A program made the translations under genes and the position numbers. From positions 1-20,340 of IMG/VR virus record IMGVR_UViG_3300009175_000090: a DNA stretch of 20,340 nucleotides. One strand, 5' to 3'. Shown piece after piece: positions 4,631-20,340 of the stretch (the stretch's first letter is position 1; each line of letters opens with the position of its first letter). This DNA comes from a virus. The notes under the pieces are model-generated. The model was given only the letters and a program-made list of their open reading frames with translations, was not told the DNA's origin and made no database searches.

Positions 4631-5956
4631 ATGGACCCGAAAGATGAATTGTTGAAAGAAATCAAGGGTTTGATTGCCGACTCGCAGAAAGAAACTGTGA
4701 CAGCAAAAGAACTCGATGCAAGAATCGAAGCGATCAACAAAAGTATCGCTGAAAAACTCGATAACGCTGAAATCAAGGCTCTTAAAGAGAGTGTTGATAA
4801 GCTTATTGAGGCTACTGTAAGTAACGCCGCTGCTATCAAAGCTATGAATGAAAAACCTGGTGCAAAAAATGCTGAAAAACCAGTATCATTCAAACAGGCT
4901 TTGATGGATTCTATTTTGGAAAAAGCGTCTGTTTCCGGTCTTTTGACCGATAAAAATGACGACTATGGTCAACGCAAATCTCTGAAAGAGTTTTTCACTG
5001 AAAAGGGAAATCAAACATCTCCGACCTTTACCGTTAAGGTAGCTGTTGACATGCTTGAGAGTTCTATCGTTCAGAGCAACGTTGCTACGGTGCGTTTGAC
5101 GGAACTTGATCCGCAGAGGGTTGGAATCCCATTGACCCTTTATCCCCACGTTACTGACTGGGTACCTTCTAAGACCATTCAGAAACCTTACATGAGTTTG
5201 TTGGTTGTGTATAGTTACACTGACGGAGCCGCAACAAAAACTGAAGGTTCTGCTTCTGGCCAGTCAAGTTTCTTGCTGAAGACTGTTGAGTTCAAGTCTT
5301 TCTACATCGCAACATTTTTCACGCTGTCTGATGAAACATTGGACGACCTGAATGAGGCAATGGAAGAGCTTGCGGTTACTGCTCCTTCAAAGATCCTGGA
5401 CAAAGTTGACGGGTATGTCCTCGGCACTGCCGGAGATGACTCCAGTGCTATTGCCGGTCTTTTGACTGCCAATAAGAAAACTGATTTCACTGGCGCATCA
5501 ACCTACGCTGCCTCTATTAAGGATGCAAATGAGGTTGACGTTTTGGCCACAATGAAACTGCAGTGTGAAGTCAACAAGTACATGCCGGACGTAGTCTTGT
5601 TGAATCCTGCTTACATCAGCAAGCTCGGAGCCAAAAAAGATGAGCTAAACAACTCTATCACTGACCGCAGGGTTGTATTCTCCCTCACTGGTGAGCCTAC
5701 AATGGTTTGTGGTATGAAGGTTATCAAGAGTACTGCCATTGCCTCAGGAGCCGCAGTTGTCCTTGATTCCAAACAGCTGATGATCGGTAAACGTAAGGAT
5801 ATGACCATGGAGATTCTGTACAATGGTACGGATGCAACTGAAGGTCAGAAAACTGTTGTCATCAAAGTCCGTTTAGCCTTTGGCGTCCGCGATGCTGCCG
5901 CAGTTATCTATGCTTCGAATGTTGATCAGTCAATCACCGATATTACTGTCAATTAA
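4631..5956 (+). CDS. Major capsid protein (HK97 fold)
   Basis: Main shell protein. Residues 1-75 form a charged, Ala/Lys/Glu-rich coiled coil, the delta arm that serves as built-in scaffold in HK97-type capsids and is removed by the protease encoded just upstream. The remaining ~350 residues match the fold in outline: an N-arm, a long E-loop region (about 180-215), a spine helix region with ETLDDLNEAMEELAV, and a P-domain/A-domain end with PDVVLLNP, a GKRKDMTMEI strand and the closing VKVRLAFGVRDAAAVIYAS, typical of phage capsid family C-termini. No separate scaffold gene is present, consistent with the arm doing that job. Two bases separate it from the protease gene. Confidence 0.88.
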   Translation: MDPKDELLKEIKGLIADSQKETVTAKELDARIEAINKSIAEKLDNAEIKALKESVDKLIEATVSNAAAIKAMNEKPGAKNAEKPVSFKQALMDSILEKASVSGLLTDKNDDYGQRKSLKEFFTEKGNQTSPTFTVKVAVDMLESSIVQSNVATVRLTELDPQRVGIPLTLYPHVTDWVPSKTIQKPYMSLLVVYSYTDGAATKTEGSASGQSSFLLKTVEFKSFYIATFFTLSDETLDDLNEAMEELAVTAPSKILDKVDGYVLGTAGDDSSAIAGLLTANKKTDFTGASTYAASIKDANEVDVLATMKLQCEVNKYMPDVVLLNPAYISKLGAKKDELNNSITDRRVVFSLTGEPTMVCGMKVIKSTAIASGAAVVLDSKQLMIGKRKDMTMEILYNGTDATEGQKTVVIKVRLAFGVRDAAAVIYASNVDQSITDITVN

Positions 5957-5958
5957 TC

Positions 5959-6906
5959 ATGAAAAAGGTACTTTTACTTTTGTCATTGATTTTTATAGTA
6001 ATTATCAGTGACGCGGCAAACAGGACAGGAGCAATCCGGCCAGGTGATACGATGTTAAGTCAGCCAATGACTTTTGATGCGAGTGATACCATCGTTACTA
6101 GCGGAACTTATACTATTACGATTTCAAATCCTCAGAAGTATATCCAGAATCAGACTTTTACTTCAACAGTAGCTACTGTGTCGGGAAGTCCCTCTGTGAC
6201 TATTACCGCCTATGGTAAAACAACTTCCGGGGGTAGCTGGGTACAAATTGGAAGTCCTGTAACTTGGACAAGTTCCTCTAATAACCCTATTGAAATCTCA
6301 TCCGCTACTCAGGTAAACTACAATTATTTAAAGCTTGCTTATGTCTGCTCAGGTGCAACACAAAAGGTTAAGGTAACTGCCTTTGACGTGCGAACTGCTA
6401 ATTTGACCTATACAATGCCGGGGATGTCCTCTGTTACATGGGCGAAAGGAGGGGCAGTTGTTTCAGCAACTACAGGTACCGACGCGGCATGTACAAGCGG
6501 AGGTAGGTTCTGGTCTGAATTAGGCGTAGGAAATACCGTTACCCTGACTGGCGTAGCTTTCTTGGTTGGGTCAGTTGGGGGTACAGACTCAGTCGTGGTT
6601 CAGTTGTGTAATTCGTCTGGTGTTCAGGTAGCAACAAGTAAGTTAACCGGGGCGCATCATGGGGCTTTGATAGGCACTGCGGCACAATTTCAAAGCGTTC
6701 CATTCAGTTCTACTTATACTGCTGCTCCGGGTAAATACTATGTTGTTTTGCAATTTAGTGGTACTACGGCAAAGTTCAGAACGTATCCTATTCCTGGGTC
6801 TAAGTTTATTGCAAATACAGCGACCGGAACATGGGATACAAAATCAGATATTACTCCTGGAACAACCTTTGTGGCGGATAAAGGGCCAATACTTATGGCT
6901 TATTAG
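5959..6906 (+). CDS. Signal-peptide-bearing beta-rich structural or secreted protein
   Basis: 315 aa. Residues 1-19 are a clear Sec signal peptide: Met-Lys-Lys, a Val/Leu/Ile core of 12-14 residues, then SDA with likely cleavage after Ala19 or Ala20. The mature part is Ser/Thr/Gly-rich and beta-predicted, with two halves: an Ig-like N-terminal domain (about 35-140) and a C-terminal domain (about 150-315) with the LTGVAFLVGSVGGTDSVVVQL and PGKYYVVLQFSGTTAKFRT patterns. I recall the latter as a recurrent beta-sandwich module in phage-associated proteins. It follows the capsid gene by two bases, where head decoration proteins usually sit, but an export signal does not fit a cytoplasm-assembled decoration protein. 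Decoration or fibre protein, or a secreted late-expressed protein: unresolved. Confidence 0.6.
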   Translation: MKKVLLLLSLIFIVIISDAANRTGAIRPGDTMLSQPMTFDASDTIVTSGTYTITISNPQKYIQNQTFTSTVATVSGSPSVTITAYGKTTSGGSWVQIGSPVTWTSSSNNPIEISSATQVNYNYLKLAYVCSGATQKVKVTAFDVRTANLTYTMPGMSSVTWAKGGAVVSATTGTDAACTSGGRFWSELGVGNTVTLTGVAFLVGSVGGTDSVVVQLCNSSGVQVATSKLTGAHHGALIGTAAQFQSVPFSSTYTAAPGKYYVVLQFSGTTAKFRTYPIPGSKFIANTATGTWDTKSDITPGTTFVADKGPILMAY

Positions 6907-6908
6907 CT

Positions 6909-7235
6909 ATGGAAGCTATATCCAAAAAGTCTGGAAAGAAGTTTACTGGAAATGTTGCAACCCTGATGATACGCATTGGGGTTGCAACTCCGGTTGACGA
7001 AGAGATTCCGGAAGTACCGGACGCAGTTGAAGTGCCAAAATCTGAAAGCGATGATGTTAATCAGGTGACTGCTGAAACAGAAGTACCTGATACAACTGAA
7101 ACGAAAGAGGAGGTGATTGAAACTGAAGTACCGGAAGTACCGGACGCAGTTGAAAAACTGACAGAGGAAATCCAATCAGAAAATCAAAGTGATTCTGCAC
7201 TTGTGATCAAACCTGAAAAGCAAAAAAGAAAGTAA
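6909..7235 (+). CDS. Small acidic protein with internal repeat
   Basis: 108 aa. The N-terminal ~28 residues (KKSGKKFTGNVATLMIRIGVATPV) look like a small folded cap, and I believe similar caps occur in small post-capsid proteins of related phages. The rest is disordered, dominated by Glu, Val, Pro, Asp and Thr, and contains the decapeptide E(I/V)PEVPDAVE twice (about residues 32-41 and 73-82). It ends in a basic KPEKQKRK tail. The underlying 24-base DNA repeat is exact (7008-7031 and 7131-7154). The place between capsid and connector genes suggests a head-tail joining or assembly accessory role, but there is no direct evidence. Confidence 0.6.
   Translation: MEAISKKSGKKFTGNVATLMIRIGVATPVDEEIPEVPDAVEVPKSESDDVNQVTAETEVPDTTETKEEVIETEVPEVPDAVEKLTEEIQSENQSDSALVIKPEKQKRK
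7008..7154 (+). repeat. Pair of exact 24-base direct repeats
   Basis: The 24-base unit at 7008-7031 recurs identically at 7131-7154, 123 bases apart (41 codons, in frame). It encodes the duplicated PEVPDAVE segment in the disordered tail of the 108-aa protein. Identity at the DNA level, including third positions, indicates recent duplication or ongoing recombination. Confidence 0.8.
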
Positions 7236-7246
7236 AAAAGTAAGCC

Positions 7247-7855
7247 ATGCTGATCGTTACATCATATTTCACCGGGGAAATAGCTATTCCAAACGTCAGA
7301 GAAAATGCCAATGCCTTGAATCAGGCAATCGAGCAATATGAAAAAGAAATCCTTATTCAGCTTCTCGGTTACAAACTGTATTCATTGATGGTTGCTGACC
7401 TGGTAAACGGCGAACCACAAAGTCAGATATTCATTGATCTGGTCAATGGTGCTGAATTTACCCATGTGATTCATGGTGAATCGATGCTAATGAAATGGGA
7501 AGGGCTTAAAAATGATGCATGCCAGTCCCTATTGGCCTACTACACGTTTTATCAGTTCGTTCAAAGGGAGGTTACTCATCTTTCCGGCAGCGGGGTTATT
7601 GTAACTCCAACCGGGCAGGGCACAAGGGCCTCATCCATGAATAAACTGTGCAACGCCTGGGAGCGCATGCGGACACTCTATGGCAAGGTTCCACCAACGT
7701 TTAAGCAATTCTTTGCGCATCCGGTGAAAGGGTCCAATCTGCCTTGTGTGTTCAATTATGACCCTTCTGCTTACAACTTTCTGTTTGCCAATAAAGCCAA
7801 CTATCCTGACTGGATCTTCACACCGCAATGGAATACTAATGCCTTCTGTATATGA
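7247..7855 (+). CDS. Probable head-tail connector/adaptor protein
   Basis: 202 aa, no signal peptide. The N-terminal 60 residues are helical, with the IPN-x-x-x-NANALNQAIEQYEKEILIQLLGYKLYSLM pattern spread over residues 15-48; I associate this arrangement with head-tail adaptor-like proteins of Bacteroidota phages. A second helical block follows (WEGLKNDACQSLLAYYTFYQFV, about 83-105), then a Pro/aromatic-rich C-terminus (HPVKGSNLPCVFNYDPSAYNFL). It lies after the capsid group and before the tail tube, where the connector (gp6-like) gene is expected. Family membership is not certain; the call leans on position. It overlaps the next gene by ATGA. Confidence 0.5.
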   Translation: MLIVTSYFTGEIAIPNVRENANALNQAIEQYEKEILIQLLGYKLYSLMVADLVNGEPQSQIFIDLVNGAEFTHVIHGESMLMKWEGLKNDACQSLLAYYTFYQFVQREVTHLSGSGVIVTPTGQGTRASSMNKLCNAWERMRTLYGKVPPTFKQFFAHPVKGSNLPCVFNYDPSAYNFLFANKANYPDWIFTPQWNTNAFCI

Positions 7856-8346
7856 ACACCCAATTCAATGACTTCCCTCAAATCTTCAAGGAGATGGTTG
7901 ACATGGCCAAAAATGAATTTGGCTCTGTCTTCCCTCTGTTTGAGTATGGCACCTATTTTGAGTTAATGCAGAAATGCACCATTCGAGACAATAACCAGGA
8001 GGATAAGTACCCATTGCTTTGGCTAGTTTGGGACCAGAATGAAAATAAAATGAACTGGATCGATCCGTATATCTATACCATTTCTCCCAGAATCTTCATC
8101 TGCGCTTATGCCAAGTTGGATGATTCTACGGAAGACAGGTATGAAAACACGATTAAACCGGTACTATTTCCAATTTTCAATCTGATCGCCGATTGGATCC
8201 AGCATCATCCGAATATTTGCTATCAGGACAATTTCAATTACGACGTGAAGGACCACCCGTTTTGGCTTAATAATGCAGCCGGAAACTTCGACACTCTTTC
8301 GGCTATCGAAATTCAGTTCCAAAATTTAACAATCTATAAAGATTAA
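7852..8346 (+). CDS. Probable tail completion / neck protein
   Basis: 164 aa, starting in a 4-base overlap with the connector gene. The protein is aromatic- and Asp/Asn-rich, alpha/beta, with WLVWDQNENK and a central ISPRIFICAYAKLDDSTEDRYENTI stretch, and ends with SAIEIQFQNLTIYKD. Lying second after the capsid block and directly before the tail tube gene, it fits the slot of the head-closure or tail-terminator protein, which has the same size class in other siphoviruses. I do not recognise specific family motifs. Confidence 0.45.
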   Translation: MNTQFNDFPQIFKEMVDMAKNEFGSVFPLFEYGTYFELMQKCTIRDNNQEDKYPLLWLVWDQNENKMNWIDPYIYTISPRIFICAYAKLDDSTEDRYENTIKPVLFPIFNLIADWIQHHPNICYQDNFNYDVKDHPFWLNNAAGNFDTLSAIEIQFQNLTIYKD

Positions 8347-8350
8347 GAAT

Positions 8351-9244
8351 ATGACTACCTGGAAAAATCAAGGTAACGGTGATGCCAAAAGCTTCCTGAA
8401 GGATGTTAAAGGCTTGATCGTTGTCACCAAGAACACCACTCAGACCGTTGCGGCGGCCAAAACCCTTGCGGGATGGCAGACGATTATCAATCCGGCTACT
8501 ACCGGAGCGATCAAAGCGACTTACATAGACTTCGAAAGAGGGTTTGAATTACAGACACCTAAACCTGAGATGGCTACATCCAATACCGGATTCAAGGAAA
8601 AGACGAAAGACTTTCCCCCTGAATTTACCGGATACGGAAACATGTCCTATGATGATTACAAAACGTGGTTTGCCGCTGATGGTAAGGAATTTGATTTTGT
8701 TCCTGTTATGCAGGACGGGAAGATCCTTGCTCCGACAACTACGGCTGGACTTCAGATCGGATTTTTCGGACGGCTGTTCGTTAATTACGATTTGCCAAAA
8801 GCCGGAGGGGCCGAGAAGCAAAAGGCCCACGAATTCACCATTATGTTTGACGACGTGGATCAGATGAAATCCGCACTCCCACTAAAGACTGATTTCTCTC
8901 GCAGGGAGCTGGCTTCTGTTGTACCGGTTGGTATCAATATCGAAATCGTTACCCCGTATGAAATTACTGGGGGTACTGTTGTCGTAAAAGCTACCAAACG
9001 TGCGACAAGTGAGCCTTACAATGGACTTGGCACAACTGCAAACTGGGAAGTTGTTTCACTCAGTGCTGATACCGGAGGTGCTTGCACCGCTATTTCTGCC
9101 ACTCAGTCTGCTTTGGGTATTTATACCCTGACCTTTCTGAACACTGCAGCCAAAATGACCGGAGCATTCGAGATCCAGGCCAATTCCGTTGCCGCTTCTC
9201 ACATTACCTATCTCTCCAACGTCATTAACGTTGTCACGCCGTGA
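8351..9244 (+). CDS. Probable major tail tube protein with C-terminal Ig-like domain
   Basis: 297 aa. The first ~205 residues are mixed beta structure with FERGFELQTPKPEM and a mid-region GLQIGFFGRLFVNYDLP, consistent with a tail tube subunit. From about residue 205 a Thr/Ala/Ser-rich domain begins (GTVVVKATKRATSEPYNG, ending in NVINVVTP) that looks like the immunoglobulin-like decoration domain often fused to tail tube proteins. The gene stands between the neck genes and the tape measure, four bases after the previous gene, and is followed a short way downstream by a strong terminator, as expected for an abundantly expressed tail gene. No clear conserved motif was recognised, so the call is positional. 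Confidence 0.55.
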   Translation: MTTWKNQGNGDAKSFLKDVKGLIVVTKNTTQTVAAAKTLAGWQTIINPATTGAIKATYIDFERGFELQTPKPEMATSNTGFKEKTKDFPPEFTGYGNMSYDDYKTWFAADGKEFDFVPVMQDGKILAPTTTAGLQIGFFGRLFVNYDLPKAGGAEKQKAHEFTIMFDDVDQMKSALPLKTDFSRRELASVVPVGINIEIVTPYEITGGTVVVKATKRATSEPYNGLGTTANWEVVSLSADTGGACTAISATQSALGIYTLTFLNTAAKMTGAFEIQANSVAASHITYLSNVINVVTP

Positions 9245-9417
9245 AATTTGGCAATATAGATGTAGACGAGACGCTCGATTGGGCTAAATGGGAGTGGGAA
9301 GAGTTTCTTTCCTTCTACGAGATTAGCCTGAAAGAGATCAAGGAGGCTCCGGAAGAGATCGCAAAGATCCTCGGAGTGAAGGTTCCTGAGAAGAAACCCA
9401 AAAAAGCAGAAGCGTAA
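9241..9417 (+). CDS. 58-residue GTG-start acidic protein
   Basis: Opens with GTG in a GTGA overlap with the tail tube stop and runs 58 codons to TAA at 9415-9417. The product has a Trp-rich motif (DWAKWEWEEF, residues 13-22), an acidic helical middle and a lysine-rich tail (KKPKKAEA). Coupling to the tube gene, absence of overlapping alternatives and the compact amphipathic composition support a real gene. It occupies the slot of tail assembly chaperones, but is small for one, and I found no workable frameshift to a longer product. Function unknown. Confidence 0.65.
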   Translation: MKFGNIDVDETLDWAKWEWEEFLSFYEISLKEIKEAPEEIAKILGVKVPEKKPKKAEA

Positions 9418-9425
9418 TTTAAAAT

Positions 9426-9462
9426 AAGGGGGGATTTGTTTGATCATTTCCCCCTCTTTTTT
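9426..9462 (+). terminator. Intrinsic (Rho-independent) terminator inside the tail module
   Basis: GGGGGGA (9428-9434) pairs with TCCCCCT (9449-9455), a seven-pair stem with one G-U closing pair and a 14-base loop, followed by a T run (9457-9462). It lies in the 54-base gap between the 58-residue gene and the cysteine-rich gene. It should end or attenuate transcripts after the tail tube gene, lowering expression of the tape measure and downstream tail-tip genes relative to head and tube genes. Confidence 0.8.
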
Positions 9463-9471
9463 GAAAAGAAG

Positions 9472-9765
9472 ATGGCAAAAGTAAGAGAGAATGAAGAGGG
9501 CGGGTATCATTTCGAATTTAATTGTCCGGGATGTGGATACGTCCATGGATTTTATACCAAACGAGAAGGATGGAATGGCCCAACTTGGCTTTTCAACGGT
9601 AATCTTGAATATCCTACCGTAAGCCCTTCTATTTTGATGACTACGAGTCAGTCAGGAGCTCCATATATCTGCCATTCATTCATTACCTGCGGAATTATCC
9701 AGTTTCTTGGTGACTGTACTCATAAGCTTTCCGGGCAAACAATTGAACTTCCTGAAATCGAATAA
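9472..9765 (+). CDS. Small Cys/His-rich protein (DUF6527-like)
   Basis: 97 aa from ATG at 9472. An in-frame ATG at 9436 would lie inside the terminator hairpin and add an uncharacteristic hydrophobic lead, so 9472 is chosen. Cysteine/histidine sites suggest metal binding: Cys18-x2-Cys21 (NCPGCGYVHG), Cys67-His68 and Cys82-x-His84. The body matches the pattern W-F-N-G-x-x-E-x-P-T-x-x-P-S-I-L, then CHSF...G.IQFLGDCTH.L.GQT..LP, which I recognise as a small phage-encoded family called DUF6527 and sometimes misnamed ammonia monooxygenase. The biochemical role is unknown. Lying right behind a terminator and between tail genes, it may be an accessory (moron-like) gene rather than a tail part. Confidence 0.7.
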   Translation: MAKVRENEEGGYHFEFNCPGCGYVHGFYTKREGWNGPTWLFNGNLEYPTVSPSILMTTSQSGAPYICHSFITCGIIQFLGDCTHKLSGQTIELPEIE

Positions 9766-9767
9766 AG

Positions 9768-10205
9768 ATGACAAGGATCCTGGACATACAAAGAAAGTCA
9801 AACCAGTATTTGAATTCATTCAATGAAAGGGCTATCAATGCCATTGAGTCAAATGGTGACTTGATGGTAAATATGAACAGGCGACAGATGCTTTCCTCCT
9901 TGGATGCCGATGAACGGCCATTGATTAACAAACGAACAGGATCGGCAAGGCTTTCAGCTGCCTATGCAAAAAGAACAGGTAAAAGCACTCCAAATTTATT
10001 CTTAAGAGGGGATTTTCAATTTGCGATGTTCTTTACTATGCCAACTATTAAGGATTACATCATCACTTCTGATAATGATTTGGTTAAATACTTGCCGGTG
10101 AATTATGGGAAGATATTTGGAGTATCTCCGACCAACCAGCCAAAGGTGCAGGAGATCAACAATAAAGCAATTATAGATGACTACTTAAATTCTGTATTCA
10201 GATGA
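9768..10205 (+). CDS. Small tail- or neck-associated protein, function unknown
   Basis: 145 aa, two bases after the previous gene. The helical N-terminus (residues 1-45, NERAINAIESNGDLMVNMNRRQM) is followed by a basic loop (NKRTGSARLSAAYAKRTGKSTPN) and LFLRGDFQFAMFFTM, resembling the 'L.L.G.F...MF' segment of small virion-morphogenesis or minor tail proteins seen in Bacteroidota phages. The closing part contains KYLPVNYGKIFGVSPTNQPKV. It could be a tail-completion protein placed late, or a minor tail protein. It overlaps the next gene by ATGA. Confidence 0.45.
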   Translation: MTRILDIQRKSNQYLNSFNERAINAIESNGDLMVNMNRRQMLSSLDADERPLINKRTGSARLSAAYAKRTGKSTPNLFLRGDFQFAMFFTMPTIKDYIITSDNDLVKYLPVNYGKIFGVSPTNQPKVQEINNKAIIDDYLNSVFR

Positions 10206-10831
10206 TCAAAGCGTTTCATGATATTACCATTTCCGATGTGATCCTACTGGATGCCACAAAATCAGCCAAATCACTGAAAAAGTATTGGTTTGTGCCGTTG
10301 TGGATGATTAGGAAAGTAGAACTTGAAGACCTAACAAAACAGATTTTTGATGCAATTGGAGGCGATACGGTGCAGGATATTTCTTATGACTTTGACAAGT
10401 TATCAGCATATCGAAAATTACAGATTTACGAGGCTCTGCATAAGGCCTTGTTAATTGAAATTAGTTTGAAAAATAGAATCAATGCCTGGAAGTTAATATT
10501 GAATAAAACCTTTTCAGAATCCAAAAATCTTGAAGATGTTATTGCCAAAGTTAAGGAGTATACCGGAATTGAGATCAATAACCCTCGCGACCTTAGAACC
10601 TTTGAGGATTATATCCAACATAGAGCCGACAAGTACAAAGAGATGTTTCCGGAAAAGGAAATTGAAGGAAAAACCGAAGTGAGCCTAACAAAGGTACTTT
10701 ATTCTGTATTCAACTTTTTGGGGGAACCCTTCAAAGAAGATACGCGGCTAATAACCTTCGTTGAGATGAAACAGATGGCAGAGGATAAGATAAGACAATC
10801 AAAACAACAAAGCGATGGCCAATTCGAATGA
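10202..10831 (+). CDS. Protein upstream of tape measure, possible tail assembly chaperone
   Basis: 209 aa, mostly helical, no signal peptide or membrane segment. Notable parts are WFVPLWMIRKVELEDL (about 29-44), a KLQIYEALHKALLIEISLKN helix (about 76-95) and a charged C-terminus (EMKQMAEDKIRQSKQQS). It overlaps the tape measure start by 17 bases in a different frame. Immediately upstream of the tape measure is where tail assembly chaperones sit, and its helical character fits, but no slippery site joining it to another frame is visible, so the assignment is tentative. Confidence 0.4.
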   Translation: MIKAFHDITISDVILLDATKSAKSLKKYWFVPLWMIRKVELEDLTKQIFDAIGGDTVQDISYDFDKLSAYRKLQIYEALHKALLIEISLKNRINAWKLILNKTFSESKNLEDVIAKVKEYTGIEINNPRDLRTFEDYIQHRADKYKEMFPEKEIEGKTEVSLTKVLYSVFNFLGEPFKEDTRLITFVEMKQMAEDKIRQSKQQSDGQFE

Positions 10832-13103
10832 AATAGCTCAGATAGATCAGATAAATAAAGGTCTGACAGATCTTAATGCGACGCTGAATACTACTGCTTC
10901 AAGTTATTTGAAGTTGGTCAAAACGATTGAGGACGGGAACAAGGTCATTAAGAATAGCGCACAGACAACGGAAGAACTGGAACGCGCCAAGAAGAAGACA
11001 GCCGATACAAGCAAGGAGCTAGATGCTCTTGGAAAACAGTTAGCGGCTAGTGAAGCTAAATTAAAACAGACCGAGGATGAAAGGCTAAAAACCATCATTC
11101 AGAACCGCATTGCAACAGAGGAAGCCACCAAAGCAATTAAAGATAAAATCAAATCAGAGGAAGCAGCTGAGGGATCTTTGGTTCGCATGAGACAAGAATT
11201 GTCAAGATTAACGAAAGAGTATGACCAATCAGCCGTCAGGACAAAAGAAGCAGCCAATCAGATAAACAATCTAAGCAAGAAAATTGAAGAGGCTGAAAAA
11301 GCTACCAATAGACACCAGCGAGGAGTAGGAGGGTACAAGGAAGCTATAAAGGATACGGCCAAAGAATTCTTAGGATTCACAGGGGCCGTGGGAATTGCAA
11401 TTGTAGTCGTGGATAAACTTAAAGAGGCTTTTGCAGAAACTGAGGCTGGGGTTAGATTTTTCAAAAGGATAGGAGAGGCTTCAACTACTTTCTTTCAAAA
11501 TATGCTTTCCGGAAATACTCAATTGATGGGTGTAAATGCATTGATTTCAGCTGATGTAGGTAAACGATTGGATGATCTTCGTATTGAAGAACGGCAAGAA
11601 CAAATAAAAGTTGCCGGATTAAATACCGAAGTAAAAATGCTAAGACTAAAAGCGGTCACAACAAAGGACTTGACTGAGCAATTGGCGATATATAAAGAGG
11701 CAGATGCTAAAGAAAATGAATCGATAGCTATCAGAAAAGAACATCTGACAAAAGAAATTGAACTGCTCACCGAGTTGAGCCTTGTTAGACCGAAGGATAC
11801 AAAATTACTCGATGAACTGAGTCAGAAGAAAGTTGAAATAATTACCCTGGAAGGTGATAAAAATCTTCGTATTCAAACCAAGATTGCTGCCGATCAAGAA
11901 AAGATTGAAAAGAAAAAAGAGGATGACGCTAAAGCAGCAACAGAAGCTGAAAAGAAAAGATTTGAATCAAAAGTATTGGCTTTTGAGTTGGTAGGTAAAA
12001 AAGAAGTGGAGACAATCAATGAGAGCCATATTAAAGGTTTGACAAGCGATGCAGAATACAAAGGTCAGTTAGTCGAGCAGGAAATGTCCTTCCTGACACG
12101 TAAGCAGGCACTTTATAAAGCCGATTCAAAAGAGTATGCAGACTTAGAGCTCGCAAAACAGGAACTGACTATCAAGGGTATTGACGATAAAAAGAAAGCC
12201 TATGATGATACAGCTAAATGGCAGAAACAAGCCGATGAAGATGCTTTTGCATCACTTGAAAAGCAATTGCAAGATCAGGAGAGCTTTGCAGAGAAAACCA
12301 AAAAGGAACAAGATCAGATTAATGCTGAAAAGTTAAAGGCAGAAGAAAAACTTGCAGAAAAGAAAAAGGAGTTGAAACAAAAGGAGCATGAACTTGAGCT
12401 TCAACTTGCCAGAACGGCTTTGGATGGAATCTTTAATTTGAATAAACAAAAATTAGATGCTCAACTCTCAGATCTCGAGAAAGAAAAGGAAGCCAAACTA
12501 TCCAATACAAATCTGACTGCGGCTCAGAAAGCCAATATCGAGAAAGAGTATGCTAAAAAAGAAGCAGAGGTCAAGACCAAGCAAGCCCATAATGATAGGC
12601 TTAAAGCCATGTTTGATATTGCCATTAATACGGCTGTCGGAATAGTTAAGGCTTCTCCTAATCTCGTTCTGATGGCATTAACCGCAGCTGTAGGGGCTAT
12701 GCAAGAGGCATTTGTAATAGCTCAACCTATTCCAAAATTCGCCAAAGGAACAAATAGCGCACCAGAACGCGGTTTATTCGGTGAGGCCGGTCGTGAATTA
12801 ATGCTACTCCGTGATAATTCAGTGATGTTAGCCGATAAACCGACCTATTTTGAAGGAGGCAGATTCAAGGGGGCAAAGATTTACAGCAATCCGGAAACAG
12901 AGCGCATGATAGGGATGGCAGACAGACGCATTTCAGGGCAATCAATCAACGATGAAAGGATCCTTGCAGGACTTGAAAAGCTTAACACTACAATTCTGTC
13001 AAAACCTGTTGCTATCTACGATAATGATCATAGGGCTATTGGGCTGGCCACAAGTCGTCATCAGGAAATTTATCTTAACCGTCTAACAAGAAATCAGTCA
13101 TGA
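10815..13103 (+). CDS. Tape measure protein
   Basis: Sets tail length and enters the cell during DNA ejection. 762 aa. Long heptad-rich coiled coil fills residues 10-180 and most of 230-590 (Lys/Glu/Ala-rich). Hydrophobic segments occur at about 184-205 (GAVGIAIVVV) and 598-640 (AINTAVGIVKASPNLVLMALTAAVGAM). The end carries KFAKGTNSAPERGLFGEAGRELMLL (about 641-665), matching the Gly-rich F-x-x-G...G-L-x-G-E-A-G-x-E signature of tape measure C-termini. At roughly 0.15 nm per residue the length predicts a tail near 115 nm, a siphovirus size (inference). No lysozyme or peptidase domain is seen. Confidence 0.9.
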   Translation: MANSNEIAQIDQINKGLTDLNATLNTTASSYLKLVKTIEDGNKVIKNSAQTTEELERAKKKTADTSKELDALGKQLAASEAKLKQTEDERLKTIIQNRIATEEATKAIKDKIKSEEAAEGSLVRMRQELSRLTKEYDQSAVRTKEAANQINNLSKKIEEAEKATNRHQRGVGGYKEAIKDTAKEFLGFTGAVGIAIVVVDKLKEAFAETEAGVRFFKRIGEASTTFFQNMLSGNTQLMGVNALISADVGKRLDDLRIEERQEQIKVAGLNTEVKMLRLKAVTTKDLTEQLAIYKEADAKENESIAIRKEHLTKEIELLTELSLVRPKDTKLLDELSQKKVEIITLEGDKNLRIQTKIAADQEKIEKKKEDDAKAATEAEKKRFESKVLAFELVGKKEVETINESHIKGLTSDAEYKGQLVEQEMSFLTRKQALYKADSKEYADLELAKQELTIKGIDDKKKAYDDTAKWQKQADEDAFASLEKQLQDQESFAEKTKKEQDQINAEKLKAEEKLAEKKKELKQKEHELELQLARTALDGIFNLNKQKLDAQLSDLEKEKEAKLSNTNLTAAQKANIEKEYAKKEAEVKTKQAHNDRLKAMFDIAINTAVGIVKASPNLVLMALTAAVGAMQEAFVIAQPIPKFAKGTNSAPERGLFGEAGRELMLLRDNSVMLADKPTYFEGGRFKGAKIYSNPETERMIGMADRRISGQSINDERILAGLEKLNTTILSKPVAIYDNDHRAIGLATSRHQEIYLNRLTRNQS

Positions 13104-15244
13104 CCTGGCCACAAGATATACAATCGGCAACCCCTGCAAAATATCTGTTCAAATTGATCAGTGCAACGGAAACGATCCTCTGTGATCCGGAGCCGCTTGA
13201 ATGGGCTTCAGGTGAACTTACCATCAAGCGCGATCTTGATGCAGGGGGAGTGTTCTCTTCCTTCCAACTTGACTCCCTGACCTTCGTCGGAAATGGCGCC
13301 GAGATGCTTAGAAAATTATTTGAGGCCTATGAGTTGAACGCCTCCTGCACGCTTGTGATTGGATGGTGGAAAGGATTAATTAGGGACTATGTAGAATTCC
13401 CTGTAAGGTTTGATATCAACTTTGCTTTTTACGAGGTTGTAAATGTCGGAACTGCAGCATTCGGGATTAAGATAAAGGCCATCAATAGCAGCACGCAAAC
13501 CAAATTAGACAATCGTCAGGATGTTGATGTGGATCTGATGAAGCTTACCTCTATCGGAGGAGTAAAGTTTACTGACTATTCACAATTGAAAAAAGAACTG
13601 TATTACGCCGCTACAAACGTCAGTTATAAAGCTGAATTGAATGGAGCAAAGGGAAATTTCGGGCTGAATCATCTCTATCATAAGGTCAGTTATTCTTCTT
13701 TCCCGTTTGAGGTAAAAACAAATGATTTTACAGACGAAATAAAATCTACCGGCTTTATCAATAACACGATATATACGGCAAACGTGCCCTCTTTTTTTAA
13801 GGAGGCGAAGTTTGATCATGACTTGGATATTCATTACGATATAGCCATTAAGGTAACAAATCGGTATGTTGGGTCATTCCCCTGGAGAGTTCAAATCTTG
13901 GAAACTCTTTCCAACGGAGATATCAACACACTTTATGATATCGCCGGATTCGGAGGAACCGTAATGACGTACGGAATTTCGGGGGATATCAGTGTTCATA
14001 TCGCCAAAGGAAACGATCTGAAGTTTGTGATCAGGTCTGAGGGTATTGATTCATCCTACATGGCTTTTTTAGTTTACAATGATATTACAGTTACTGAACA
14101 AGTAGCCAATGCCCCGGCAACGCTAACTGAAGGATTTCCGCTATATGAAGCGCTTGAAAGGACCTGTCAGCATATGCTGGATACGCAATATCCGATTTAT
14201 TCAGAATTCTTTGGCAGAGTAGACGTAGCATATGATCCATTTGGAAATAAGTACGTTTCTGAAAATCAATTTCGGTTTGCGCATATCCAATCGGGCATGA
14301 ACCAACGTGGCATTAGCCTTGACAATCCTGATAGCCCTTTGGCGCTTAACTTTAAAAAGCTATTCGCTGCGATTAAGTCTCTATATAATGTTGGCTATTC
14401 CTTTGAGGTAGTTTCCGGAACTGTACGTGTCAGAATTGAGGAGTATGCGCATTTCTTTCAAAGCCTTGAGGCCTTGAACATCTCAGACAGGCTAAGCAGA
14501 TACGATATTCAGTCTCAGGTCATGCCCGAACTTGTTCCGGTTGATATAAAAAGCGGTTTTGACTCTTTTGAATATCTGACGATAAACGGCAGGGCTGAAC
14601 CCAATACTACCAACCAACGCACAAGTATCATGAACACGGCCACGAAGTTTGAAGCCATCTCTCCGCTTCGCGGGGATACGAAAGGGATAAGCGTGAATCT
14701 ATCAAATCCGGTTGACAATTCGTTGGGGAGCACAGATACCAAGAGTGACAGTGCGATATTCATAGTTAAAACGCAAAGGGATTCAGAACATCAATGGAAA
14801 CCGGAAAAGGGAGAGAATATTTCCATCGTGGGCGATACGAGCCTTTTTAAGAATGATCTATTAAACAGGTATTTCACTCCAACCCGAATGCTCCTACGGC
14901 ATGGTAACAGGCTGAAAGCCGGGATGACGAAGTTCCTTGACGGCGTTCTTACCTTTCAGACGAGTGATAAGAACTGTTCCCTAATCACCTCGGATGACGG
15001 AGGAGTCACCGCGCTTGCAGAAAATGGGGATATCCCGGTATCGTCACTCTCCGACCCGATCTATAAACCGATGAAGCACACTGTAAACTGTGTATTCACA
15101 TTTTCCGATCTGGAGGCCATTCAAGCCAACCCATTTGGATACATCACCTTTTCAGACACTGTAAAAGGATATTTACTCAGTTTGAAGAAGAAAAACAACG
15201 AGGACAAAGCCGAAATTATCATCATTGAAAAATACGAGCCATGA
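13100..15244 (+). CDS. Tail tip / baseplate hub protein
   Basis: 714 aa, starting by ATGA overlap with the tape measure. The N-terminal part (1-150) is beta-rich and begins with PAKYLFKLISATETILCDPEPLEW, resembling a distal-tail-like domain. The middle (about 180-335) looks like a beta-sandwich insertion, possibly carbohydrate-binding (IKVTNRYVGSFPWRVQIL). The C-terminal 250 residues include FTPTRMLLRHG, MTKFLDGVLTFQTSDKN and NPFGYITFSDTVKGYLL, followed by a basic end (SLKKKNNEDKAEIIII). I believe this layout is shared by tail-tip hub proteins of Bacteroidota siphoviruses. Being next after the tape measure, it likely forms the tail tip and contacts the host surface. No enzyme motif was seen. 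Confidence 0.6.
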   Translation: MTWPQDIQSATPAKYLFKLISATETILCDPEPLEWASGELTIKRDLDAGGVFSSFQLDSLTFVGNGAEMLRKLFEAYELNASCTLVIGWWKGLIRDYVEFPVRFDINFAFYEVVNVGTAAFGIKIKAINSSTQTKLDNRQDVDVDLMKLTSIGGVKFTDYSQLKKELYYAATNVSYKAELNGAKGNFGLNHLYHKVSYSSFPFEVKTNDFTDEIKSTGFINNTIYTANVPSFFKEAKFDHDLDIHYDIAIKVTNRYVGSFPWRVQILETLSNGDINTLYDIAGFGGTVMTYGISGDISVHIAKGNDLKFVIRSEGIDSSYMAFLVYNDITVTEQVANAPATLTEGFPLYEALERTCQHMLDTQYPIYSEFFGRVDVAYDPFGNKYVSENQFRFAHIQSGMNQRGISLDNPDSPLALNFKKLFAAIKSLYNVGYSFEVVSGTVRVRIEEYAHFFQSLEALNISDRLSRYDIQSQVMPELVPVDIKSGFDSFEYLTINGRAEPNTTNQRTSIMNTATKFEAISPLRGDTKGISVNLSNPVDNSLGSTDTKSDSAIFIVKTQRDSEHQWKPEKGENISIVGDTSLFKNDLLNRYFTPTRMLLRHGNRLKAGMTKFLDGVLTFQTSDKNCSLITSDDGGVTALAENGDIPVSSLSDPIYKPMKHTVNCVFTFSDLEAIQANPFGYITFSDTVKGYLLSLKKKNNEDKAEIIIIEKYEP

Positions 15245-16416
15245 TAGCAAGTTCAATTTTAAACAGTATTTCTTTCAAAAACTTATCAGGAAGTTTTCCA
15301 AATATGTGGAATACTCTCCATGCTGATCGAAGGCAGGGCAATGCCCGGATCATCCCCTATGCGCAGAAATTCCAGAAGGATCATGTAGTTTACCTCCAGT
15401 TCATGTCGGATATACCTGATACAATAACGCTGAAATCATATTATGGCACCGTACAGGTAGAGTCATTCACGGTTGCTTATGCAAGCCATTACGGAACTAC
15501 AAATAACAGGTATTTCACCAATTTCACGATAACCCTTGGTGCAAGTTATTACGACAAACAGATCACATTTAAGGCTGCTCAGGGAGCCAATACGCTTGTC
15601 AGCGAGCCGGTCTTTATAACCGATCTGGCGTATCTGATCGGTAAAGGCCTGATGAAGTACGTCAAGTACACCAACCTGAATAGAATTGAAGCTGATCTCG
15701 ATGATCGTATGATCGACTGGTCTGTATTGCCATCAACGGGAAACTATCTTGACTTCTACATAGAGGCCTTAGACTCTGATCCAAATGATACGGACAAATC
15801 AGAGGTACTTGAGGGGTCGCAAAGTCAGACTATCATTTCTTCCGTTTTCTACTCCGGAAGGGTTTTAAAGACCGGCCCCATTCCGGATTACATAGCCACA
15901 AAGCTAGGGATGATCAGCAACCTGGATATTTTCACGATCAACGATCTGCAGTACATAAAATCGGGTGAAATCACCCAGTCTGCCTTCGCCGGAAGCACAC
16001 TCTACCAGGCAGAGCTTAAACTAACACAGAAAAATGCTATTGGAATCAATGTTGATTCACTTGGCATCAGCGCCGGAGTAAGCGTTCCCATATCGGGAAC
16101 CCCAATGTATATCGGATCTGTCACTGGTGTAACCCCTACGGAAACAGATGTAAAGGTCATAACTTCTATTTCGGCGGTTAAGACCAATCAGGCAAAGACG
16201 TACACGATATCAGGCGCTCGTTTCTGTTTTGCCTATCCGGCGAGCTTTGGTAGTCTGGTTAGCATTTTGGACAACATTGGCGATGAAATCCTCTCAGGAT
16301 TTAACGTCCAAACGCTCAATTTCACCATCTCGGGAAGCGCTGTTTCATATAAAATTTATACCCTGAAATCATCTGTAATAGTTAGTTCATACACAGTAAC
16401 TTTTAAATTTTCTTAA
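15241..16416 (+). CDS. Tail tip / baseplate protein, function unknown
   Basis: 391 aa, coupled by ATGA to the hub gene. The N-terminal domain (to about 135) contains RQGNARIIPYAQKFQKDHVVYLQF and an all-beta pattern. A central acidic region follows (DSDPNDTDKSEVLEG). The C-terminal ~100 residues (from about 295: AKTYTISGARFCFAYPASFGSLVSILDNIG) resemble a small beta domain that I recall at the ends of tail-fibre-like proteins. The order suggests a baseplate component attached to the hub. I do not recognise the family with confidence. Confidence 0.5.
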   Translation: MIASSILNSISFKNLSGSFPNMWNTLHADRRQGNARIIPYAQKFQKDHVVYLQFMSDIPDTITLKSYYGTVQVESFTVAYASHYGTTNNRYFTNFTITLGASYYDKQITFKAAQGANTLVSEPVFITDLAYLIGKGLMKYVKYTNLNRIEADLDDRMIDWSVLPSTGNYLDFYIEALDSDPNDTDKSEVLEGSQSQTIISSVFYSGRVLKTGPIPDYIATKLGMISNLDIFTINDLQYIKSGEITQSAFAGSTLYQAELKLTQKNAIGINVDSLGISAGVSVPISGTPMYIGSVTGVTPTETDVKVITSISAVKTNQAKTYTISGARFCFAYPASFGSLVSILDNIGDEILSGFNVQTLNFTISGSAVSYKIYTLKSSVIVSSYTVTFKFS

Positions 16417-16418
16417 TC

Positions 16419-17087
16419 ATGGCAACAGGAACGCCCAAAGCAATCGGATTTCTTATGGCTTCACAGAGGCCACTTGACGAGCATTATCTTAATGAGGGAG
16501 CTGATTGGGCCGATGTAGCAACCGCATTGGCCGGAATTCCATCCGGATCACGTAGTTCAGGGAAGTTAGTAATGATAGCCGGAGCTCTGTACAAGTTTAA
16601 AGCCAATCTTACTGAATTGGAATTGGCCAACGCGCAGACAACTTTAGCCTCCGGGATAACCATTGCCGATGCCGGGGGTCTTTATGGATCCAGCAATGTG
16701 GAGGATGCCCTCGCGGAGGTAAAGACTCAGGCGGATACCCTGCAAACAGCCATTGAAAATATCGCATCAGGTGGAAGCATTGCCACCATTATGCTTCCGG
16801 CAGGATCCTTGGCCGCTAAAGTTGCAGGGGCTGTATCAGGAACTGATTACCCTACCGGATGGACGCTAGCAGTGGATAGCAGCGTAAATTTATCCATTAC
16901 CCATGGCTTAACCGGAAAGAAGGTAGCTGGAATAAACGTATTTGAAATATCCGGTTCGGACGAAAGGATGCTCCCTCCATTCGCAGAAGCTTATAGTGGG
17001 GTAGTGGGTAACGGATTAAATGTAAAAATTGAAGGATTTGCACCTACAACTTTAGCTGTTCGTATCGAAATTTTTTTTAACTTATAG
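16419..17087 (+). CDS. Tail fibre-like / receptor-binding candidate 1
   Basis: 222 aa. An N-terminal domain (about 1-60) with RPLDEHYLNEGADWADVATALAGI, then SSGKLVMIAGALYKF, has the look of the attachment domain that opens many phage tail fibres ('start-up parameter, grid, visible value' pattern). It is followed by YGSSNVEDALAEVKTQADTLQ (about 86-106), a helical linker common in such fibres, and a beta-rich Gly/Ser/Thr-rich tip (ISGSDERMLPPFAEAY). Together they suggest a short fibre or tail-tip spike. Its last codons lie in the TAACTTATAGAT motif that precedes the next gene. Confidence 0.5.
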   Translation: MATGTPKAIGFLMASQRPLDEHYLNEGADWADVATALAGIPSGSRSSGKLVMIAGALYKFKANLTELELANAQTTLASGITIADAGGLYGSSNVEDALAEVKTQADTLQTAIENIASGGSIATIMLPAGSLAAKVAGAVSGTDYPTGWTLAVDSSVNLSITHGLTGKKVAGINVFEISGSDERMLPPFAEAYSGVVGNGLNVKIEGFAPTTLAVRIEIFFNL

Positions 17088-17089
17088 AT
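17078..17089 (+). promoter_or_regulatory. TAACTTATAGAT motif before the 17090 gene (copy 3)
   Basis: The motif taacttatagat at 17078-17089 lies directly before the ATG at 17090 and is identical to 2178-2189; the terminase copy reads taacttataaat. It overlaps the end of the preceding coding region, so part of it may be constrained by the protein sequence. With three copies placed close before starts at block borders it is a candidate translation or transcription signal. Confidence 0.3.
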
Positions 17090-17773
17090 ATGAGCATCGC
17101 GACTAAATATAACCCCGTTGTAGCCTGGAGGACCATTGCCAAGGACGTCTTCCAATTGACGCGTGAAACGACGCTTTTGCCGGCTACTTACCGGATGACT
17201 GTCGGAGTTATTGACAGCACAAATCCGGGGGCTGGGCAGAAAGGAATCGGTTATTTTTTAGCTGACTATATGGGCGTTCCTTACTCAATAATTGCGGTAA
17301 ATACCAACTCCATAGACGTTCAGGATGATTTTAGAATTGGACGTTGCCCGACAAGTGGAAAGATGGCAATCGTTTATCAATCGGTTTTCGGGGGCAGAGC
17401 CTTGTTCCTGGGTCCTGAAGATTTTCAGTTCCTGCATCCCCTTGCGCTATCAAATTCACAACGTTTCTTGACTGCCCTACTTTGGGCCAATGATCCAAAT
17501 GCGAAAAAGGTGCCATTCACCTCGCAGGACACGCCGACGATCAGCACCTACCAGGCAGATCAGACGGACCCGGAGGATGGTACAAAGACGATCAACTTTG
17601 CATCTGATTTTGGCGAGAATCCGCTCGTCAGGTTGATTATTAATGTAGACTCAAACAATCAATATCAGCGCCAGCAAACTCCCTTGTTTACCTATTCTGC
17701 CGGCAAGCTTGATACTATTCGTTTCGAACTTGGAGAATCATTATCAGGATATTTTTTAATCAGTAAGGCATGA
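17090..17773 (+). CDS. Tail tip protein, function unknown
   Basis: 227 aa. It contains a recognisable mixed alpha/beta core with GYFLADYMGVPYSIIAVNTN (about 54-73), a loop IGRCPTSGKMAIVYQSVFGGRALFLGPEDFQFLHPL (about 83-118), and a DQTDPEDGTKTI segment. No signal peptide and no obvious enzyme motif. It is flanked by fibre-like genes, so a tail-tip or fibre role is likely. The Gly/aromatic-rich loop could be a binding surface. I do not know the family. Confidence 0.45.
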   Translation: MSIATKYNPVVAWRTIAKDVFQLTRETTLLPATYRMTVGVIDSTNPGAGQKGIGYFLADYMGVPYSIIAVNTNSIDVQDDFRIGRCPTSGKMAIVYQSVFGGRALFLGPEDFQFLHPLALSNSQRFLTALLWANDPNAKKVPFTSQDTPTISTYQADQTDPEDGTKTINFASDFGENPLVRLIINVDSNNQYQRQQTPLFTYSAGKLDTIRFELGESLSGYFLISKA

Positions 17774-18792
17774 AAAATTTATTTATAATCATATTTATTT
17801 TTTCTGTTTTTTCATCAATGGGGCAATACAACCGCCCAATCGGAACAAATATCAAGACCTTATCGGCCTTTGCTTTTTATTACAATACGAACGATTCAAC
17901 TATTGGAATGTTCAAGGGGAATACTTACCTGAACAACTATTTTTGGAGCAAGCAAGACACTTTAAAACTAAAATCATTAGCCACTCTTTACCGATTGTCA
18001 AAGTACGTTGCATTGAAAGATACAACCGTAAATCTAAAGGGATATACTTCGTTTTATAAAGGCTCTTTGATGAAACTAAAATCTGACAGTACAACAAATT
18101 CTGGATATGCTACAAGATATCAGGTTACTGGCCTTTCTCGTTTAGCAATAAGTCTTACTACATCGGGCACTTCTGGTGCTGCAACCTATAGCAACTCAAC
18201 AGGAGTTTTAAATATTCCAAATCTATCATTACCAACGGTGAACAATGCTACTCTTACCTTGGCTGTAAGTGGAACCGGCCTGAGCGGAGCGCAATCATTT
18301 ACTGCTAATCAAAGCACGAATGCAACATTTACGGTCACTTCCAACGCAACCACTTCAAACAGCGCTGGAACCATCGTCGCCCGTGACGGATCGGGATATG
18401 TGGCACTAACCGGAACATTCTGCAGCTCATCGGACAGTACACTGAAACGCAGAATCCAGCCCTTGAGTGAGACCGATTTTAACAACGTATCGAAAATTGA
18501 CTTTCGAAAATTCGCCTTTAAGTCAGACCAGAAGGACCATACCCATTTCGGGGTGATGGCACAGCAGGTGGAGACGCTGGTGCCTGAGGTAGTGCAAACC
18601 AATGAGGTAACCGGAAAAAAAGAGGTCAATTACATTGAGATGCTCGTCCTGGTGGCTGCTCAGCAAAAAGAAGCAATCACCCTGCAAAACCAACTGATCG
18701 AGAAACTTGAAAAACGAATATCCGAACTTGAAAGGACAACAAGAAAAAAGAATATCTGGAAATCTCAGCAATGTAAAATATTACTTCCGTGA
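17770..18792 (+). CDS. Tail fibre with signal peptide and S74 self-cleaving chaperone
   Basis: 340 aa. Residues 1-18 are a Sec signal peptide (MKNLFIIIFIFSVFSSMG) with Gln19 next, the Bacteroidota style of cleavage. Residues 20-215 are Thr/Ser/Asn-rich repeat-like beta sequence typical of a trimeric fibre stem. The C-terminal domain (about 218-340) is the intramolecular chaperone (peptidase S74) of endosialidase-type fibres: Ser221-Asp222 and Lys226 (SDSTLK) supply the Ser-Lys dyad. They are followed by HFGVMAQQVETLVPEVV, NYIEMLVLVAAQQ and a closing coiled coil. In known members the domain cuts itself off after the trimer folds. The signal peptide is unexpected for a virion fibre. It starts by ATGA overlap, and the following gene overlaps it by GTGA. 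Confidence 0.8.
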   Translation: MKNLFIIIFIFSVFSSMGQYNRPIGTNIKTLSAFAFYYNTNDSTIGMFKGNTYLNNYFWSKQDTLKLKSLATLYRLSKYVALKDTTVNLKGYTSFYKGSLMKLKSDSTTNSGYATRYQVTGLSRLAISLTTSGTSGAATYSNSTGVLNIPNLSLPTVNNATLTLAVSGTGLSGAQSFTANQSTNATFTVTSNATTSNSAGTIVARDGSGYVALTGTFCSSSDSTLKRRIQPLSETDFNNVSKIDFRKFAFKSDQKDHTHFGVMAQQVETLVPEVVQTNEVTGKKEVNYIEMLVLVAAQQKEAITLQNQLIEKLEKRISELERTTRKKNIWKSQQCKILLP

Positions 18793-19289
18793 AAAAATTC
18801 ATAGTCATAGCATTCATTTTACTATTTGGCAGGTCCTTCGGCCAGCACTTACCTACATCCGGTCTGTGTCTTTCAGATGTTTTAGCAGTTACAGGGGGAT
18901 CCTGTCTCGCTGATGCTTTTACCTACGCCAATTCAACATATTTTGATCCGGCCTATGCTGTTGCCGGAGGAAATTATTTAGATGATTTCAGAAATTACGG
19001 CCCAACTGCTTGTACAAGACCGGGCGGCCTTTATACCGTTACTTTTTATAGTAAAGATAACGGTGTTGTTGTTACAAGTGGTAACGCCTGCGGTACTTGG
19101 CGGACATGTACTTCTGACTGTATTTCGGTTGTAGGCCAAACAACAGGTTATGAAGGCGCAGATGTTTATTCGGGCACGGGTACAGATTGCACAAAATTAA
19201 CTGATGGATATTATGTTGTTGCAAGCGGGGGAGATACTTACACAGCCGTCCATATCGTTAGTGGCGTGTTACATTACGTACCATGTTAA
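18789..19289 (+). CDS. Secreted eight-cysteine protein
   Basis: 166 aa from a GTG start that overlaps the S74 gene by 4 bases. The signal peptide (KKFIVIAFILLFGRSFG) ends at Gly18 with Gln19 after it, the same cleavage geometry as the S74 fibre. The mature part has eight cysteines (27, 39, 75, 101, 107, 111, 134, 166), enough for four disulfides that would form only outside the cytoplasm. An early motif LPTSGLCLSDVLAVTGGSC and a later DDFRNYG recur in phage tail and secreted proteins of this host group, to my knowledge. An ending DGYYVVASGG...VLHYVPC suggests a small beta domain. Likely a secreted phage-encoded factor or an exported structural protein. Confidence 0.6.
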   Translation: MKKFIVIAFILLFGRSFGQHLPTSGLCLSDVLAVTGGSCLADAFTYANSTYFDPAYAVAGGNYLDDFRNYGPTACTRPGGLYTVTFYSKDNGVVVTSGNACGTWRTCTSDCISVVGQTTGYEGADVYSGTGTDCTKLTDGYYVVASGGDTYTAVHIVSGVLHYVPC

Positions 19290-19650: not shown

Positions 19651-20025
19651 ATGCCAGCAATAATTGAAGGGATAATAAATTTTAATCGGGTGATCAGGAA
19701 CGATGTTTTTGATTTTGCTTTTGATCTAAAAACAAATATAGATCTATCTGGTAAGAATATTGTTTGCCAAGTTCGTCTTAACGCAAATGATAAATTACTC
19801 CTTGAATTTAAAGAATCTGATGAAAGTCTCAGGGTAGGAGATCCGGTAACAATTGAAGGTACAGACAAAACGCAAAGGACCATTTCCTTGCATATGGATG
19901 CAAATAAAATGCTGCTATCGGCTAATGTATATCGTCATGGTTTTATGATTTACTCCAATGCCACAGATAGGCAGGTAATAATTACAGGAGTTTTCAAAGT
20001 AGTTGACGAAATCCCTAAAATCTAA
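19651..20025 (+). CDS. Small beta-sandwich fibre/baseplate protein (BppU-N-like)
   Basis: 124 aa. The pattern of alternating strands, with VIRNDVFDFAFDL, SGKNIVCQVRLNANDKLLLEFK and a later MLLSANVYRHGFMIYSN, matches the small beta-sandwich domain that often precedes or anchors fibre proteins (the BppU N-terminal type, 'dltG..i..qvR'). No signal peptide or enzyme motif. It stands four bases after the membrane protein and directly before the heptad-repeat fibre gene, which fits a role as its attachment partner or stalk. Confidence 0.5.
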   Translation: MPAIIEGIINFNRVIRNDVFDFAFDLKTNIDLSGKNIVCQVRLNANDKLLLEFKESDESLRVGDPVTIEGTDKTQRTISLHMDANKMLLSANVYRHGFMIYSNATDRQVIITGVFKVVDEIPKI

Positions 20026-20029
20026 GGAC

Positions 20030-20340
20030 ATGAATGTAGATGTAATTCAGCAAGAAAATTCAGCGATTGAAATAATTCAAAAGGGAGATACTGGTCTGTC
20101 TGCTTATCAGATTGCGGTTTTGCATGGTTACGAAGGCACGGAAGAAGAATACGCAATTGGGGAAACCGAAAGAGTAACCGCGGAAGATTTGCGCGTGACC
20201 GCTGAAGGCAATCGGGCATCGGCTGAAACGACTAGAGGTAATAATGAATCGACTCGACAGACAAATGAATTAGGGCGTACTGATGCTGAGACTTCTCGAG
20301 TATCGGCTGAAACGACTAGAGGTAATAATGAATCGACTCG
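20030..20340 (+). CDS. Heptad-repeat tail fibre (5' part only)
   Basis: Starts at ATG 20030, four bases after the previous stop, and stays open to the window end (103 codons seen). Residues 18-44 (QKGDTGLSAYQIAVLHGYEGTEEEYAI) match the G-x-x-G-x-S-A-Y-x-I-A-V-x-x-G-x-x-G-T-E-x-E motif found at the head of many tail fibres. From about residue 46 the chain becomes strict heptads of the form E-x-x-R-x-x-A/N, predicted to form a long trimeric coiled-coil stalk. The repeat is also exact at the DNA level (84-base period). The C-terminus, probably a receptor-binding or chaperone domain, lies outside the window. Confidence 0.75.
   Translation, partial: MNVDVIQQENSAIEIIQKGDTGLSAYQIAVLHGYEGTEEEYAIGETERVTAEDLRVTAEGNRASAETTRGNNESTRQTNELGRTDAETSRVSAETTRGNNEST
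20218..20340 (+). repeat. 84-base tandem period in the fibre stalk
   Basis: The 39 bases at 20218-20256 recur exactly at 20302-20340, a spacing of 84 bases (28 residues, four heptads). The window stops at the last base of the second copy, so the array probably continues. Exact identity including silent positions points to recent expansion. Confidence 0.75.

Follow-up and report, generated by a model that had tools for sequence, protein, structure and literature searches.

Predicted Sec signals in the late operon of a tailed phage sit on exactly the parts that would cover the outer surface of the particle, namely the capsid-adjoining protein and the tail fibers. The best overall explanation, to which we give a probability of roughly 0.7 jointly with a Bacteroidota host and with the fiber-partner role of the last exported protein, is that outer parts of the virion are exported, cleaved and docked onto particles made in the cytoplasm.

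Gene order and features of the window

The window, meaning the whole stretch of DNA that was analyzed, is a whole IMG/VR record of 20,340 bases, and its genes are named here by their start positions. From 5' to 3' it carries terminase, portal, a pre-capsid gene, an HK97-type capsid, 5959, connector-like genes and the tape measure (10815), followed by 13100, 15241, 16419, 17090, 17770, 18789 and a small membrane protein at 19302. We read this order as the late operon of a siphovirus-like tailed phage that probably infects Bacteroidota. A Shine-Dalgarno-like motif was absent upstream of 21 of the 21 genes, which fits such a host, as this is expected there. Bacterial genome contigs scanned with a tail protein of the window lineage and with a phi10:1 lyase contained no copies. 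The features discussed below are as follows.

4631..5956, plus strand, major capsid protein (HK97 type), PF05065 at 2.7e-13, no signal peptide
5959..6906, plus strand, exported putative capsid-decoration protein of 315 aa, directly 3' of the major capsid gene
5959..6015, plus strand, signal peptide of 5959, predicted cut after Ala19, MKKVLLLLSLIFIVIISDA followed by A
6016..6408, plus strand, conserved N-terminal domain of 5959, residues ~20-150, present alone in homologs of 145-147 aa (alignment, model)
6436..6903, plus strand, C-terminal domain of 5959, swapped for unrelated-looking parts in many homologs (alignment)
10815..13103, plus strand, tape measure protein, PHROG tape measure at 4e-17, no signal peptide
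13100..17773, plus strand, four tail-tip genes (13100, 15241, 16419, 17090), no signal peptide; 13100 is a virion structural protein by its match to PHROG 15220
17770..18792, plus strand, exported tail fiber of 340 aa with an S74 (endosialidase-type) chaperone domain at the C-terminal end (PHROG tail fiber families)
17770..17823, plus strand, predicted signal peptide of 17770, cut at Gly18/Gln19, MKNLFIIIFIFSVFSSMG followed by Q; Gln19 is invariant in 7 aligned fibers
17824..17949, plus strand, conserved post-cleavage segment of 17770, residues ~19-60 (alignment)
18430..18594, plus strand, S74 intramolecular chaperone domain, residues 221-275 (Pfam PF13884, 1.2e-11)
18789..19289, plus strand, exported 166-aa protein with 8 Cys, its start overlapping the fiber gene stop
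18789..18842, plus strand, predicted signal peptide of 18789, cut at Gly18/Gln19, VKKFIVIAFILLFGRSFG followed by Q

Three further stretches of the window deserve mention. The gene just upstream of the capsid gene (3669-4628, plus strand) has a zinc-ribbon-like CxxC...CxxC near its C-terminus and no confident family match. Between genes 8351 and 9768, an unassigned plus-strand ORF at 9436-9765 contains a CPGCG motif with its cysteines, and it is overlapped by a minus-strand ORF at 9208-9546; a similar ORF lies at the same place in locus L026 (6166-6405, minus strand, 37% identical), and the minus-strand ORF is possibly an antisense shadow of a conserved gene. At 20003-20338 on the plus strand, an ORF cut by the contig end has repeated coiled-coil-like segments (AETTRGNNESTRQTNELGR) and no signal peptide, and could be a further fiber or neck part.

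Signal peptides and start codons

An earlier note on this DNA had proposed that 5959, 17770 and 18789 open with Sec signal peptides and that their neighbors do not. Scoring was done with our own scorer of n, h and c regions (not SignalP) at a threshold of 4, which gives occasional false positives (1 in a set of 36 virion genes from three phages outside Bacteroidota). All three starts showed the n, h and c regions of a Sec signal peptide and scored above threshold (6.0 for 5959, 5.2 for 17770 and 4.7 for 18789), and no other called window gene did, which bears out the proposal and leaves these three as the window's Sec/signal peptidase I (SPase I) substrates by prediction. The Gly18/Gln19 junction described for 17770 and 18789 was also right, and Gln19 stands at +1 in both, in line with the established Q-rule for proteins of Bacteroidetes, by which Gln immediately follows the cut (PMC5837995, PMC10653852). 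In 5959 the cut after Ala19 was placed by alignment, with Ala at -1 in 19 of 20 homologs and A, Q, T or G at +1; the +1 residue is Ala20 in the window and Gln in 8 of the 20 aligned homologs. None of the three proteins has an SPII lipobox with Cys at +1, and none of them matched a type IX secretion C-terminal sorting domain in NCBIfam. Type IX secretion cargo was thus rejected, as the sorting tail is absent.

The starts themselves are firm because the junctions are tight or overlapping: 17770 and 18789 overlap the end of the preceding gene, stop codon included, by four bases (ATGA and GTGA, respectively), and 5959 starts 2 bases after the capsid gene stop. The earlier note had named translation from a start downstream of the hydrophobic part among the findings that would refute its proposal, and this was ruled out by homolog conservation and the gene overlaps. 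There is no downstream in-frame start in the first 60 codons of 18789; 17770 has an ATG at codon 17, a position that is Met in no homolog listed for it, and 5959 has one at codon 32, which sits within the conserved mature domain.

Conservation in relatives

Conservation was surveyed in 66 IMG/VR loci by counting complete distinct homologs. Signal peptides were present in 20/20 homologs of 5959 (a 21st was cut by a contig end and left out), 6/6 of 17770 and 2/2 of 18789, compared with 2 of 287 homologs of all other window gene families pooled (20/20 versus 2/287, Fisher p about 2e-29, for homologs that share ancestry and so do not count as independent). Of the two exceptions, one is a 16419 homolog in L075 (19626-20441), from a tail-tip family that elsewhere has no signal peptide, and its N-terminus (MKNLIVFVFLILSIGAFS followed by Q) reads plausibly as a Gln-rule signal peptide.

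The position between capsid and connector genes, if filled, usually holds a gene with a signal peptide even when homology to 5959 is not detectable, as in the more distant relatives L009, L065, L073-L075 and L077; in L029, L060, L061, L069 and L072 it either has no gene or contains just a short 6909 homolog. At the fiber position, the first gene has a signal peptide in 11 of 13 lineages, the window included, and is followed by up to five more such genes (L027); the signal is missing in two relatives, L005 and L023. Each exported family follows a common plan of signal peptide, conserved post-cut segment and variable distal part.

The earlier note had offered secreted cargo as one of two options, and beta-rich secreted proteins of unknown function with variable C-termini would suit moron or lysogenic-conversion genes placed in the late operon by chance. 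This origin is disfavored to the point of being very improbable, as the genes occupy two fixed slots in divergent phages, a signal peptide was kept 20/20 in one of these slots, the start codons are tied to structural genes, the N-terminal module is conserved, 17770 has tail-fiber homology, and equivalent proteins of other phages carry virion mass spectrometry notes (see below).

Two side observations came from the same loci. Extra short genes with signal peptides (85-98 aa, starting MKRI[QK]LL) lie beside the 5959 homolog in L044 (9299-9586), L056 (8263-8559) and L068 (9546-9803). In Riemerella phage RAP44 (L033, 12853-13545), a CDS annotated as 'structural protein with Ig domain' has a lipobox and looks like a lipoprotein, and may be a lipid-anchored counterpart.

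A probable capsid-decoration protein and a fiber module

The position of 5959 directly after the major capsid gene, its beta fold and its modular C-terminus together suggest that it is probably a capsid-decoration protein. In its AlphaFold model, residues 21-150 form a beta-sandwich with pLDDT about 90 and a second beta domain follows, so the description of the mature parts as beta-rich in the earlier note holds for this protein. Its fold matched tandem CBM22-like modules and phage proteins. By sequence, 5959 had no PHROG match to a known decoration family and only a below-threshold match to Golvesin_C, with no match in the phage collection and no meaningful match among PDB sequences. We propose that the conserved N-terminal domain is the capsid-binding part.

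The S74 assignment of 17770 is clear (45.2 bits for PF13884 against a cut-off of 22), and the protein had no meaningful match among PDB sequences. We propose its post-cleavage segment as the part that docks onto the virion. S74/endosialidase-type fibers elsewhere share the C-terminal chaperone domain, but those checked outside Bacteroidota (PG7, BcepIL02, CRP-227) had no convincing signal peptide. The next protein, 18789, has the eight cysteines that the earlier note counted in one of the three, and several genes at the same position encode 8-9 Cys as well. Its homologs conserve 50-60 residues after the cut and then vary, its predicted structure has a pLDDT of 38, and it had no match in the phage collection; the best explanation, at the strength given for the main reading, is that it is a Cys-rich partner of the fiber 17770.

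Virion proteins of Cellulophaga phages

GenBank CDS notes that cite experimental MS/MS as showing virion structural proteins provided evidence on virion membership, with a sample of 74 such CDS from seven Cellulophaga phages. Fourteen of these scored as having a signal peptide, one of which, phi4:1 gp57, probably has a membrane segment instead. The remaining 13 are fibers, pectate lyases and other adhesion-module proteins of phi10:1, phi19:1, phi39:1 and phi18:3, and 12 of the 13 have Gln at +1, in a set that includes near-identical orthologs and about 9 distinct N-termini. Mature N-termini predicted for such proteins include pyroGlu-VEQVEAVVLAK in phi39:1 gp25, pyroGlu-TTDVVK in phi10:1 gp091 and pyroGlu-TVEGTVGSDGSLIPYNVSGGLDETAVDTK in phi10:1 gp094. 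Signal peptides were absent from the noted CDS that are named as portal, capsid, connector or tape-measure proteins. These phages resemble the window phage in having Gln-rule signal peptides on the fiber/depolymerase module, by which analogy 17770 would also belong to the virion. They differ in that phi19:1 shares one tail gene with it at 18% identity, no gene with a signal peptide was seen directly after their capsid gene, and their GenBank notes are silent on signal peptides.

The N-termini of these proteins and of the three window proteins might instead be hydrophobic segments that are never used for export and are retained for oligomerization, membrane insertion or docking, a reading that accommodates the virion notes of the Cellulophaga proteins. 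We consider it improbable, given that the n, h and c regions are all present, with Ala or Gly in the -1 position and Gln in the +1 position, that [AGS]Q falls within positions 15-31 in 47 of 69 proteins with signal peptides versus 13% of ORFs without, and that Gln19 is invariant in the fibers. A domain swap also speaks against it: phi14:2 and phi4:1 have noted virion proteins in which the pectate lyase domain of phi10:1 gp093 follows a different N-terminus that lacks a signal peptide. Conversely, phi18:3 and Nekkels_1 carry the signal peptide plus first 118-132 aa of gp093 on different C-terminal parts. This pattern suggests that the export signal travels with the N-terminal (docking) module and not with the enzyme.

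No signal peptide was seen on the fibers of the Bacteroidota phages phi12:1, phi18:1, phi38:1, phi14:2, phi4:1, crAss001, B40-8 and JQ, indicating that export is not obligatory but a recurrent option.

Discussion

We favor a reading in which the capsid and tail core would be made in the cytoplasm, and the outward-facing 5959, 17770 and 18789 would be synthesized as preproteins for Sec export, with host signal peptidase I removing the signal peptides. Cleavage would leave an N-terminal Gln on 17770 and 18789, which a host cyclase could turn into pyroglutamate. As there is no type IX sorting tail, the exported proteins would fold in the periplasm, and they may dock onto finished particles via their conserved N-terminal module once the inner membrane and wall are breached at lysis. 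In other phages, complete particles can take up decoration proteins and several tail spikes or fibers in vitro, which makes such late joining physically reasonable. The evidence supports both export and virion membership well. The earlier note had rightly invoked the Bacteroidota Gln rule and posed export as a problem for virion proteins, and its other option, that part of the structural set acts outside the host cell, is better worded as probable virion parts that are exported and then joined to the particle. Possible reasons for export include a pyroglutamate-protected N-terminus, periplasmic folding aids and keeping adhesins from cytoplasmic targets. A need for disulfides was rejected as a general reason, with 0.56 Cys per 100 residues in exported proteins versus 0.57 in core proteins.

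Alternatively, these proteins could be free, non-structural factors whose site of action is the periplasm, the host surface or the medium, for instance in polysaccharide degradation, receptor blocking or superinfection exclusion, and that co-purify in virion mass spectrometry. Proteins of this kind are ordinarily exported by Sec, and Gln-rule signal-peptide genes of the 'Nixviridae' prophages of P. gingivalis, likewise phage genes in a Bacteroidota host, were described by their authors as of function unknown and potential host outer-membrane modifiers, not as virion parts (PMC10367356). We regard this account as unlikely here. The genes occupy fixed slots beside capsid and tail-tip genes, conserve the post-cut segment while the ends vary, and include an S74 fiber chaperone; after the window tail-tip genes, the sole other fiber candidate is the cut ORF at 20003. 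Moreover, the other signal-peptide genes of phi10:1 and phi19:1, which lie outside the adhesion module, have no MS note, as would not be expected if secreted proteins contaminated the virions in general.

The proteins that are exported, cleaved and docked in our preferred reading share the Sec signal peptide and, in 17770 and 18789, Gln after the cut with Q-rule SPase I substrates of Bacteroidetes, which differ in being host proteins (PMC5837995, PMC10653852) and not, as here, probable capsid-decoration and tail-fiber proteins of a tailed phage. A search of the open-licence literature, with subscription journals mostly outside it, returned no description of signal peptides on tailed-phage fibers or decoration proteins. 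The coat proteins of filamentous phages (M13 pIII and pVIII) are familiar examples of virion proteins whose signal peptides are cleaved off; these assemble in the membrane and leave the cell by extrusion instead of lysis, whereas the particle here is tailed with a core that lacks signal peptides. To our knowledge, tailed phages are taken to assemble entirely in the cytoplasm.

We put at slightly better than even the chance that particle assembly is split between two compartments in tailed phages of several Bacteroidota-infecting lineages, with a cytoplasmic core and an outer decoration and adhesion apparatus that would pass through Sec, SPase I and glutaminyl cyclase before the two are joined at lysis. 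Phage genes with signal peptides are easily mistaken for host contamination or secreted cargo, and the annotation of such phages would change if this holds. If many Bacteroidota phages have receptor-binding proteins that mature outside the cytoplasm, this would change where and when a particle turns infectious, how its fibers fold, and which host factors (Sec, SPase I, glutaminyl cyclase) limit burst quality.
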